Source: Burkholderia pseudomultivorans
Lineage (GTDB): Bacteria; Pseudomonadota; Gammaproteobacteria; Burkholderiales; Burkholderiaceae
DNA length: 64,000 bases
Reading direction: 5' to 3'
Assembly (NCBI RefSeq): GCF_001718415.1
Contig: NZ_CP013378.1
Coordinates: forward strand, 1,798,001-1,862,000
Under the pieces are notes generated by a model. The model did no database searches and was not told where the DNA came from. It was given only the letters and a program-made list of their open reading frames with translations. Below are positions 2,195-42,207 of the stretch, piece by piece. Position 1 is the first letter of the stretch. Each line of letters opens with the position of its first letter. Both the position numbers and the translations under genes were made by a program.

Positions 2195-3514
2195 GTGTCC
2201 AAGTTCCTCAACTCGCTGTTTGGTCGAGTCGTGATCGCCTTAGTCCTCGGGGTCGCGCTCGGCGCGTTCTTCCCGCATTTCGCCGAGTCGCTGAAACCGC
2301 TCGGTGACGGTTTTCTGAAGCTCATCAAGATGGTGATCGGCCCGATCGTGTTCTGCGTCGTGGTCAGCGGGATGGCCAACGCGGGCGACCTGAAGAAGGT
2401 CGGCCGGGTCGGCCTGAAGGCGGTCGTCTACTTCGAGCTGATGACGACGCTGGCGCTCGGCATCGGCGTGCTGCTCGCGTGGCTGCTGCGGCCGGGCGAG
2501 GGGATGAACATCAACCTGAACTCGCTCGACGCGTCGTCGCTCGCCGCGTACGCGAAGAATGCCGAGAGCCTGAAGGACACGGCCGGCTTCCTGATGAAGA
2601 TCATCCCCGACACCGCGATCGACGCGTTCGCGAAGGGCGACATCCTGCAGATCCTCGTGTTCGCGGTGCTGTTCGGCTCGGCGCTGTCGCTGCTCGGCGA
2701 CAAGGCGCAGCGCGTGAACAGCCTGATCGAGGAGCTGTCGCACGTGTTCTTCCGCGTGATCGGCTTCATCATCAAGCTCGCGCCGCTCGGCGTGCTCGGC
2801 GCGATCGCATTCACGACCGGCAAGTACGGCGTCGCGTCGCTCAAGCAACTCGGCTATCTGGTCGCGGTGTTCTACCTGAGCTGCTTCGTGTTCGTCACGG
2901 TCGTGCTCGGCATCGTGATGCGGCTGGCGGGCTTCTCGGTGTTCAAGCTGATCCGCTACCTGCGCGAGGAACTGTCGATCGTGCTCGGCACGGCGTCGTC
3001 GGACGCGGTGCTGCCGCAGGTGATGCGCAAGCTCGAATACATGGGCGTGAAGGATTCGACCGTCGGCCTCGTGATCCCGACCGGCTATTCGTTCAACCTC
3101 GACGGCTTCTCGATCTACCTGACGCTGGCGGTGCTGTTCATCGCGCAGGCGACCAACACGCCGCTGTCGTTCCACGACCTGATCGTCGTGCTGCTGGTGT
3201 CGATGATCACGTCGAAGGGCGCGCACGGGATTCCGGGCTCGGCGATCGTGATTCTCGCGGCGACGCTGTCGGCGATCCCGGCGATTCCGGTGCTCGGTCT
3301 CGTGCTGATCCTGCCGGTCGACTGGTTCGTCGGCATCGCGCGTGCGCTGACCAACCTGATCGGCAACTGCGTGGCGACGGTCGTCGTCGCGGTGTGGGAG
3401 AACGACATCGACCGGGCCCGCGCGAAGCGCGTGCTGAACCGCGAACTGCGCTACGTGCCGGCCGAGGAGGAAGAGGCGGCGCCGGTCGCCGGCGACCAGG
3501 CCCACGCGCTCTGA
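2195..3514 (+). CDS. dctA: C4-dicarboxylate/cation symporter DctA
   Basis: The 439-residue inner-membrane carrier belongs to the dicarboxylate/amino acid:cation symporter family and imports succinate, fumarate or malate with protons or sodium. It has about eight hydrophobic segments and the family signatures: SDAVLPQVMRKLE near 270, PTGYSFNLDGFSIYLTLAV near 290-308 and SKGAHGIPGSAIVIL near 332-346. Length matches E. coli DctA (428). A GGGAGAGC ribosome binding site precedes the start. Transcription is probably controlled by the divergent FCD regulator through the palindrome at 2140-2154. Confidence 0.93.
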   Translation: MSKFLNSLFGRVVIALVLGVALGAFFPHFAESLKPLGDGFLKLIKMVIGPIVFCVVVSGMANAGDLKKVGRVGLKAVVYFELMTTLALGIGVLLAWLLRPGEGMNINLNSLDASSLAAYAKNAESLKDTAGFLMKIIPDTAIDAFAKGDILQILVFAVLFGSALSLLGDKAQRVNSLIEELSHVFFRVIGFIIKLAPLGVLGAIAFTTGKYGVASLKQLGYLVAVFYLSCFVFVTVVLGIVMRLAGFSVFKLIRYLREELSIVLGTASSDAVLPQVMRKLEYMGVKDSTVGLVIPTGYSFNLDGFSIYLTLAVLFIAQATNTPLSFHDLIVVLLVSMITSKGAHGIPGSAIVILAATLSAIPAIPVLGLVLILPVDWFVGIARALTNLIGNCVATVVVAVWENDIDRARAKRVLNRELRYVPAEEEEAAPVAGDQAHAL

Positions 3515-3600: not shown

Positions 3601-3617
3601 CATCAGGAAGGCAAAAC

Positions 3618-3740
3618 ATGAGACGGGAGCGAGCGCCGAAGCGTGAGCGCCTGTCGAGAGGTTTGCAGCGGGCCGGAGCAAGAAGTGCCAAAGCACTCAC
3701 TTCGGCGGACAGCTTTGCATGGGACAGGAGTAAGCGCTAA
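3618..3740 (+). CDS. Possible 40-residue basic peptide in the alc leader
   Basis: An ATG at 3618 is preceded by a good ribosome binding site (AGGAAGG, 6-base spacing). It opens a 40-codon frame, Arg/Lys-rich at the N-terminus and ending in DSFAWDRSKR, with its stop inside the second full repeat unit. Most of it overlaps the tandem hairpin units. It may be a translated leader peptide or simply a by-product of the repeat sequence. I cannot assign a function. Confidence 0.3.
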   Translation: MRRERAPKRERLSRGLQRAGARSAKALTSADSFAWDRSKR

Positions 3741-3869
3741 AGCGCCAACTCCTGTCGACAGCTTTGCATGGGGTCGCAGTAAGCGCTAAAGCGCTAACTG
3801 CGACCGACAGCTTTACATGGGACAGGAGTAAGCGCTAAAGCGCCAACTCCTGTCGACACAGGAGACGAT
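3622..3869 (+). repeat. Five tandem hairpin units in the allantoicase leader
   Basis: Units start at about 3622, 3674, 3723, 3772 and 3821; the last three are exactly 49 bases apart and the fifth ends at the alc start codon. Each unit has an outer stem, an inner GCGC-rich stem with an NRAA-type loop (CGAA, CAAA or TAAA), and, in units two to four, a spacer close to GACAGCTTTGCATGG. Outer stems differ but pair: GACAGGAGT/ACTCCTGTC (units 3 and 5), GGTCGCAGT/ACTGCGACC (unit 4), GCCGGAG/CTTCGGC (unit 2) and GACGGGAGC/GCGCCTGTC with a wobble and a mismatch (unit 1). In unit 5 the 3' arm CTCCTGT (3847-3853) can instead pair with ACAGGAG (3858-3864), the alc ribosome binding site. Confidence 0.85.
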
Positions 3870-4877
3870 ATGGCAGCCCCCATCCTCGACCCGAACGCGC
3901 CGGCCTTCACGCGGCGCTACATGAACCTCGCCGATCCGCGCGTCGGCGCACAGGCGCTGTTCGCCAGCGACGAATTCTTCGCGCCGAAGGAGCGCATGCT
4001 CAACCCGGAGCCGGCGGTTTTCATCCCCGGCAAATACGACGACCACGGCAAGTGGATGGACGGCTGGGAGACGCGCCGCAAGCGCACGACCGGCCACGAC
4101 TTCTGCGTGGTCCGGCTCGCGCGGGCGGGCGTGATCCACGGCGTCGACCTCGACACCAGCCACTTCACCGGCAACTTCCCGCCGGCCGCGTCGATCGAGG
4201 CGTGCTTCAGCGACGCCGACACGCCGTCCGACGATGCCGAATGGCGCACGATCGTGCCCGCGACGACGCTGCAGGGCAATGCGCATCACTATGTCGAGGT
4301 CGTCGATCCGCGCCCGTACACGCATCTGCGCGTGAACCTGTATCCGGACGGCGGCCTCGCGCGCCTGCGCGTGTACGGGCAGCCGCAGCGCGACTGGAGC
4401 CGCGTGCCGCACGGCGAACTGGTCGATCTCGCGGCGACCGAGAACGGCGGCTACCTGGTGGCCGCGAACAACCAGCACTTCGGCGCGGCAGCGCAGATGC
4501 TGATGCCCGGGCGCGGCGCGAACATGGGCGACGGCTGGGAAACGCGCCGCCGCCGCGAACCCGGCAACGACTGGGCAATCATTGCGCTCGCGCGGCCGGG
4601 CATCATCCGGCGCGTCGAGGTCGACACCGCGTTCTTCAAGGGCAACTACCCCGACCGCTGCTCGCTGCAGGCCGCGCAGGTCGCGGGCGGCACCGACGAT
4701 TCGCTCGTCACGCAGGCGATGTTCTGGGCCGAACTGCTCGGCGAGCAGAAACTGTCGATGGACAGCGTCCATACGTTCGACCCGCTCGCGTCGCTCGGGC
4801 CCGTCACGCACGTGCGCTTCAACATCTTCCCGGACGGCGGCGTGTCGCGCCTGCGTCTGTGGGGCGAACCGGCCTGA
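3870..4877 (+). CDS. alc: Allantoicase
   Basis: Allantoicase (335 residues) hydrolyses allantoate to ureidoglycolate and urea in purine breakdown. The protein shows the family's internal duplication: a GWETRR segment followed by a V-D-T-x-x-F-x-GN-(F/Y)-P motif occurs near residues 62-103 and again near 219-256. Each half ends in an N-(L/I)-(Y/F)-PDGG-(L/V)-(A/S)-RLR motif. It starts at the ATG at 3870 behind AGGAG, which forms part of the leader's alternative hairpin, so translation may be structure-controlled. The ureidoglycolate lyase gene follows after 14 bases and acts on its product. Confidence 0.93.
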
Positions 4878-40835: not shown

Positions 40836-40845
40836 GCGCGTCGCA

Positions 40846-41252
<407 letters not shown>

Positions 41253-41268
41253 GCCGCTCGAATACACG

Positions 41269-42070: not shown

Positions 42071-42162
42071 CATTGGTTGTCGCGCTGCGGCAACCTCCGA
42101 ATGTCTCCTCCACCCTCCTCCTAAGGTGGATTAAGCCCGAACCAGCCGTTCGGGCTTTTTTT
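42071..42162 (+). ncRNA. Candidate small RNA with anti-Shine-Dalgarno loop
   Basis: The predicted transcript is about 92 bases with three hairpins. Hairpin 1 (42075-42095) is GGTTGTCGC-GCT-GCGGCAACC, nine pairs with one U-G. Hairpin 2 (42109-42130) has stem TCCACC / GGTGGA and the loop CUCCUCCUAA, complementary to a Shine-Dalgarno sequence. Hairpin 3 is the terminator. No reading frame with a ribosome binding site fits. It lies between two minus-strand genes, so it is its own unit. The structure suggests a trans-acting RNA that masks ribosome binding sites; known sRNAs with C/U-rich loops act this way. Targets are not known. Confidence 0.68.
42133..42162 (+). terminator. Terminator of the candidate sRNA
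   Basis: A perfect 10-bp stem (AAGCCCGAAC / GTTCGGGCTT) with a 5-base loop merges into a run of seven T. Confidence 0.88.
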
Positions 42163-42207
42163 CGTCCCGTGCAAGCATCGGCGCGCAGCTTGCGCGCCCC
42201 GAGACCG

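Follow-up and report, generated by a model that had tools for sequence, protein, structure and literature searches.

The tandem array of hairpins that precedes the allantoicase gene alc of Burkholderia pseudomultivorans is probably (at roughly 0.7) one local group of copies of a palindromic DNA repeat that is REP-like, mobile, and dispersed in the genomes of Burkholderia and related genera. As part of this explanation, the alc array would be a lineage-specific insertion, and an effect on alc would be possible without being the reason for its presence. The array lies in the window, by which we mean the whole stretch of 64,000 nucleotides that was analyzed, between alc and an upstream open reading frame (2195–3514) that we take, by name, to encode a DctA-like protein.

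The preliminary description had reported five hairpins in the alc leader, two of them degenerate and three at an exact 49-nt period, and this layout was seen in the sequence and in the inverted-repeat and tandem-repeat results (Table 1). The concerted change of both outer arms, GACAGGAGT/ACTCCTGTC against GGTCGCAGT/ACTGCGACC, was likewise present in the sequence. The inner GCGC stems, the loop, and the conserved spacer were as described, except that the loop is better written YRAA than NRAA and that the spacer forms part of the 49-nt unit. Fifteen nucleotides separate the end of the last hairpin from the alc ATG. The segment 3615–3880 folded at −125.4 kcal/mol compared with −91.6 kcal/mol (standard deviation, 5.2) for shuffled sequences (z = −6.5), and three single-hairpin pieces gave z values from −6.5 to −7.9 for RNA folding and from −5.9 to −7.5 for DNA folding, again against shuffles. 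The inner 14-mer with up to three mismatches occurred 10 times in the 64-kb window against 13.2 expected; since this is no excess, counts of loose patterns alone are no evidence.

Table 1. The hairpin array in front of alc, with positions in the window (R1, covariance model built from 26 units).
Feature	Position	Strand	Evidence
Hairpin 1, degenerate	3622..3655	+	R1 match G000:C2:1801607-1801659 (window 3607-3659), 31.1 bits, E 0.0027; fold
Hairpin 2, degenerate, inner stem GTGC-CAAA-GCAC	3672..3706	+	Sequence and fold; outside the R1 list at E ≤ 0.01
Hairpin 3, outer arm GACAGGAGT	3723..3756	+	Inverted repeat I3; R1, 79.9 bits
Hairpin 4, outer arm GGTCGCAGT	3772..3805	+	Inverted repeat I2; R1, 80.6 bits
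Hairpin 5, outer arm GACAGGAGT	3821..3854	+	Inverted repeat I4; R1, 75.8 bits
Tandem array, 3.1 copies of the 49-nt unit (linker GACAGCTTTGCATGG and hairpin)	3708..3858	+	Tandem Repeats Finder
GACACAGGAGACGAT, right junction GA|CA and Shine–Dalgarno AGGAG at 3860-3864	3855..3869	+	Sequence; junction compared with other loci
alc, allantoicase, downstream of the array	3870..4877	+	Pfam PF03561, 331.5 bits

Each unit is about 49 nt long and consists of (CA)GCTTTGCATGG, a 34-nt hairpin, and GA; units stand head to tail at a spacing of about 49 nt and in variable number. The hairpin comprises a 9-bp outer stem, an A·A mismatch, a variable position (A-U, G-C, or A·C), a GCGC stem, and a YRAA loop of 4 nt. 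In 68 of 72 arrays from three genomes (G000, the genome of the window, G006, and G024), the last hairpin was followed by GACA, giving TGTC before the stem on the antisense strand, and inner units of arrays also showed GACC. Ahead of the stem in the sense direction, T13, G14, and G15 were found in 85, 89, and 87 of 91 units, respectively, which corresponds to CCA on the other strand. The first stem pair was G-C in all 26 units of alignment A2. This alignment, the source of covariance model R1, was drawn from 12 loci and omits six rows of the 32-row alignment A1 (a misaligned window unit, an rRNA-spacer unit, one L012 unit, and three L018 units).

The earlier claim that pairing is kept while the sequence changes was borne out by the covariance check on these 26 units, where 92.9% of 364 cells held standard pairs, double changes occurred at nine of the 14 pairs, and double-change cells numbered 56 compared with 18.5 in shuffles. 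Twelve atpC-leader hairpins gave 14 double-change cells against 5.1 in shuffles and further pair types at 10 against 9.9, which is no excess; these hairpins span three genera, and separate insertions are possible among them. Paired changes were likewise seen by eye for other genes carrying hairpins in more than one species. The gene names used here (atpG, atpA, atpD, atpC, trpA, and others) are those that we recognized from the sequences and presume to be correct.

A covariance search across Burkholderia, proposed in the preliminary description as a check, showed the unit to be dispersed and not specific to alc. R1 gave 48 matches at E ≤ 0.01 in the B. pseudomultivorans genome, 35 of them at E ≤ 1e-4, and among 41 relatives it was positive in 25, comprising all 25 genomes of the genus and none of the 16 from other families of the order. 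The survey of the family was positive in 59 of 150 genomes and eight of 25 genera. At E ≤ 1e-5, the own genome was the sole positive in a set of 143 genomes drawn from the class (0 of 142 others). Because model searches scored no more than 38–150 candidates in each genome, copy counts in the genus, family, and class surveys are lower bounds. The exact 16-mer GTAAGCGCTAAAGCGC was found at 12 places in the own genome; with up to two mismatches it gave 36 matches there against 35 for the reversed control, and further use was therefore limited to the 12 exact matches and those of the model. Twenty-two records of a plasmid collection matched the array, all named Burkholderia, Paraburkholderia, or Caballeronia, and in the one record with gene annotation among the four inspected, the array stood in sense ahead of a class II aldolase family gene. 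Two matches were also obtained among viral contigs.

Placement relative to genes was determined for 147 matches in G000 (36, one with E 1.5e-4), G006 (50), and G024 (61), which form 72 arrays. A mechanical start test, by which a Shine–Dalgarno-like motif and a start with an open frame all had to fall within 70 nt, was passed by 62 of the 72 arrays in sense and by four in antisense. Reading by eye placed 64 arrays before starts, with L186 and L229 removed and L010, the L026 atpC copy, L213, and L204 added; the remaining eight were those in rRNA spacers (L011, L230, and L234) together with L186, L231, L190, L224, and L229. A Shine–Dalgarno-like motif lay no more than 14 nt from the last hairpin in 58 of the 72 arrays, compared with 7.0% of 37,597 CA sites. 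The sequence after the unit starts with CA, usually continuing with a purine-rich stretch that is most often a Shine–Dalgarno site, and single-copy units were common in this set. Among the loci of best matches (L110–L160), 40 of 54 arrays passed the start test in sense and one in antisense, a few arrays (e.g., L110/L136) being counted twice. Of 35 arrays examined in G089, which belongs to another genus, 15 passed and 20 failed; by eye, approximately 10 of the failing arrays adjoin an A-run, mostly by a terminator-like inverted repeat, and two lie inside another dispersed repeat.

The genes downstream have mixed functions. The 16 proteins scanned downstream of own-genome arrays comprised allantoicase, acyl-CoA dehydrogenases, mannitol and zinc alcohol dehydrogenases, HutF, an FAD oxidase, a sigma54 regulator, a BNR-type protein, a thiolase, three transporters, an ATC hydrolase, the glycine cleavage P-protein, and an AMP-binding enzyme. 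Units before atpC numbered one in G000, two in G024, and seven in G006 (L188 and L280), and those before a trpA-like gene eight in G006 (L184) and one in G024. Downstream of the G006 atpC array, L188:5435-5501 partially matched RF02423, a predicted Burkholderia sRNA.

The proposal of a dedicated alc leader element or switch was not supported, since the unit also stands before unrelated genes and antisense in rRNA spacers and was rare among alc orthologues. Within the best 80 of 574 confirmed alc loci, one convincing unit was found, in Burkholderia sp. SRS-46 (L039), by a search with a loose pattern that yields chance matches and from which rows with four or five mismatches were dropped by eye. 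The alc leader of G024 carries a unit as well (L205). A tree of 27 alc genes, which included the window, G024, and a selection of the same best 80 loci, called for three changes to place the three carriers; each of these changes is forced by well-supported branches, and L044, the sister of L039, was empty. The carriers were nested among empty sisters and differed in hairpin and left flank, and the left flank of the window array showed no clean line-up with empty alc leaders. A mobile repeat is thus a more probable explanation of the array than a switch dedicated to alc.

Comparison of orthologous or paralogous sites showed that presence or absence of the unit corresponds to a block of 48–51 nt. 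In the atpG leader of one genus, an empty TTCGATC-AAGGAG (G059 and G139) was paired with a filled TTCGATC-(GCTTTGCATGG-hairpin-CGAC)-AAGGAG (G079); three further genera had both filled and empty members at this site. The atpC leader showed empty CTCAACC-AGGAG against filled versions in several genera. Four tRNA-Ile/Ala spacers of the own genome measured 41 nt and one measured 92 nt, the extra 51 nt being the hairpin in antisense to the rRNA; this comparison covered five operons, with the sixth (at C2:27k) outside it. In G073, a dispersed small-ORF repeat had copies that contain the unit, and in L170 and L171 filled and empty copies lay side by side. All of these cases can be drawn with CA after the insert. 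Because CA is often also the start of the unit, the insertion border cannot be placed exactly, and this uncertainty holds our confidence in a mobile repeat at the level given above. No clean target duplication was seen at the filled sites, where block length varies from 48 to 51 nt.

The dispersed small-ORF repeat (G073, L161–L175; G089, L407 and L440) starts with a start codon, has the frame MNxPHAHYRSLPPxGADASLGAARREAS, and ends in GGGAGGCATCATG before the next gene. Many of its copies contain the hairpin, and near-identical composite copies have been amplified in G073.

Such patchiness could also arise without mobility from an old, vertically inherited element that has only been lost since, by precise deletion between short flanking repeats. 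Hairpins flanked by short repeats are known to undergo such deletion. A tree of atpG–atpD from 61 genomes, 14 of which were labeled filled by eye, needed at least eight changes between the filled and empty states, six of them forced; some of these changes may represent losses after a single old insertion, given that the filled atpG junctions are nearly alike between four genera, and at this site G086 looks like an imprecise loss beside the filled G049. Loss alone is nevertheless a very improbable account of the whole, given that the three alc carriers nested in empty sisters have different hairpins and left flanks, that one of five rRNA spacers is filled within a single genome, and that near-identical composite copies were amplified in G073.

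We used mismatches to separate RNA from DNA as the molecule in which the arms are kept paired, on the premise that selection on sense RNA should give more G·U than A·C. The outer stems of 207 distinct units found regardless of pairing held 1449 cells, of which 1275 were Watson–Crick pairs, 60 G·U, 55 A·C, and 59 other. The counts of G·U and A·C did not differ (p = 0.71), and the mismatches showed no strand bias; an earlier set of 91 units gave 13 G·U and 19 A·C in the outer stem. The inner stem of the same 207 units leaned towards G·U (21 against 10). Thirty tRNAs as a control gave 40 G·U and no A·C, which is only indicative, as ARAGORN favors paired stems. Thus, the outer stem behaves like a DNA inverted repeat, and the near-equality of G·U and A·C in it favors a DNA hairpin over selection on an mRNA fold. 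Selection on folded RNA or DNA had been suggested from the sequence; the pairing on which that suggestion relied is kept, and DNA is favored, whereas the mismatch counts argue against sense RNA. One arm is known to be correctable from the other during replication, which would produce paired changes without selection. Pairing was also retained in old-looking copies of the unit, which counts against a mobile repeat, since a purely selfish element does not need pairing.

These data bear directly on a functional RNA leader, in which a hairpin flush with the Shine–Dalgarno site would expose or insulate that site, protect a processed 5′ end, or bind a protein, and would be kept in many metabolic operons. 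Arrays that stand in sense directly ahead of a start (62 of 72), genes that carry the hairpin in more than one species, compensatory changes among the atpC copies, and very stable RNA folds are all consistent with this alternative. We nevertheless consider it unlikely, because G·U did not exceed A·C in the outer stem in either set, while tRNAs, though a biased control, showed a complete excess; because the same genes lack the hairpin in close relatives; because copies are antisense in rRNA spacers and 20 of 35 arrays in G089 fail the start test, approximately 10 of them by A-runs; and because the downstream genes have mixed functions. Under the mobile-repeat reading, leader functions are possible in some genes. 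It counts against that reading that the sense orientation at Shine–Dalgarno sites (62 of 72) could also be the outcome of selection for such a function.

Regarding the mechanism, we tentatively propose a single-stranded DNA hairpin element, possibly served by a trans-acting enzyme, whose targets would be pyrimidine tracts with TG at their end, mostly complements of Shine–Dalgarno sites, and which would seed leader arrays across Burkholderia sensu lato. A putative enzyme would recognize the hairpin as folded single-stranded DNA and place TGTC-hairpin-CCA, on the antisense strand, 3′ of such a tract. This target would account for the orientation, the nearness to ribosome-binding sites, and the copies beside terminator A-runs. 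Since each unit ends in GCTG on the antisense strand, insertion would lead to head-to-tail arrays, which may lengthen through slippage or when a further unit inserts at the end of the array itself. Pairing of the arms would persist either through a requirement for the DNA hairpin or through correction of one arm with the other as template.

No transposase was found to follow the repeat in the family, where Y1_Tnp matches occurred in 134 of 150 genomes with or without it. Mobilization by a RAYT was rejected, as most genomes of the family have a single Y1-like gene, with the repeat or without it. The Y1_Tnp-like protein of the own genome (L029:1459-2172; C2:1554102-1554392 region) was a borderline match at 21.3–22.9 bits, and its HUH motif appears to be replaced by QVQ, which we take to suggest a non-catalytic relative. 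An IS-borne origin was also discarded, because we read the same-sequence matches (L011:-2260, L016, L019, L020, and L022) as the 5S–23S end of rRNA operons, an assignment presumed from our recognition of the sequence. These 23S–5S-end spacers contain a related GTAAGCGCTGAAGCGCTAAC hairpin, antisense to the rRNA. A micro-ORF of the form ATG-GGN-N3-N3-TAA/TAG, present in many units, was dismissed, since intact GCAA units have no stop and no Shine–Dalgarno site precedes the ATG.

If the proposed mechanism is true, the repeat would be a mobile element aimed at ribosome-binding sites and supplying ready-made leader structures. For the REP field, this would mean a further family whose empty sites are clear and whose usual target is the ribosome-binding region, within a CGTC-type class that has no known transposase. 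More generally, an inverted repeat with paired changes does not on that evidence alone prove selection on RNA, and the count of G·U against A·C helps to separate the two cases.

Among known RNA families, Rfam 15 gave no gathering-score match over the array in the window or over the arrays in L010, L176, and L188. The best match of the array was to naRNA4/CssrE (RF02564), with two hairpins on the minus strand at 32.4 bits against a gathering score of 59.5, so that the array is not a member. Elsewhere in the window, RNase P RNA class A (40845–41256; 290.5 bits) and RF02278, the Betaproteobacteria toxic small RNA (42102–42163; 73.6 bits), were identified. The RF02278 type comprises double-hairpin sRNAs, which the available part of PMC5688073 reports in B. 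cenocepacia; as a candidate for the array it was set aside, being a different thing. No description of the hairpin repeat as a family was found in open-access papers, to which the search was confined, subscription papers lying outside it, nor does it appear in the available parts of PMC4603805 and PMC5688073.

The core of the unit has been printed as an orphan CRISPR repeat of Paraburkholderia terrae and P. hospita, with a related string in P. oxyphila (PMC5968390, Table 4), and the orphan repeat GCGTAAGCGCTAAAGCGCTAACGCC of that table contains it. This is what speaks for an orphan CRISPR array or, as had been suggested for the alc leader, a protein-binding array in duplex DNA. Both are highly implausible, since conservation lies in the linkers and the outer arms are variable yet still complementary, which is the reverse of the conserved repeats and unique spacers of a CRISPR array and is not expected for a sequence-reading protein, and since single copies are common. 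We read the tabulated orphan repeats as units of the hairpin family and not as CRISPR, which corrects the printed assignment.

Other short repeats resemble the array in part. The Beggiatoaceae TAACTGA repeats, as presented in the available text of PMC4679880, also form short arrays just upstream of the start codons of unrelated genes, but they are 7-nt direct repeats without a conserved hairpin, in other organisms. GTAG-tagged REPs and REPINs with RAYT, as portrayed in the accessible portions of PMC3733652 and PMC3116915, are likewise small extragenic palindromes amplifying within genomes, whereas the hairpin repeat has no unpaired GTAG tag and no repeat-linked RAYT was found for it.

The nearest described class is that of the CGTC-tagged REPs. 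In the available part of PMC3733652, which does not mention Burkholderia, these are short dispersed palindromes with a tag that is often TGTC, a CCA tail at the opposite end, a loop of 4–5 nt, and no known dedicated transposase; their stems are 8–9 bp long with A/T at the first two positions, and they occur mainly as head-to-head pairs, with negligible head-to-tail pairs. Read in antisense, the hairpin repeat shares the tag, tail, and loop of that description (TGTC-hairpin-CCA with a 4-nt YRAA loop), and its 9-bp outer stem is followed by a mismatch and a further inner stem. It differs from the class as described there in having an invariant G-C first pair instead of A/T and in forming head-to-tail arrays by Shine–Dalgarno sites, and because of these two features we do not file it as a CGTC-tagged REP. 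Our best reading is that the hairpin repeat is an undescribed, REP-like, TGTC-tagged mobile palindrome that inserts before CA and a purine tract.
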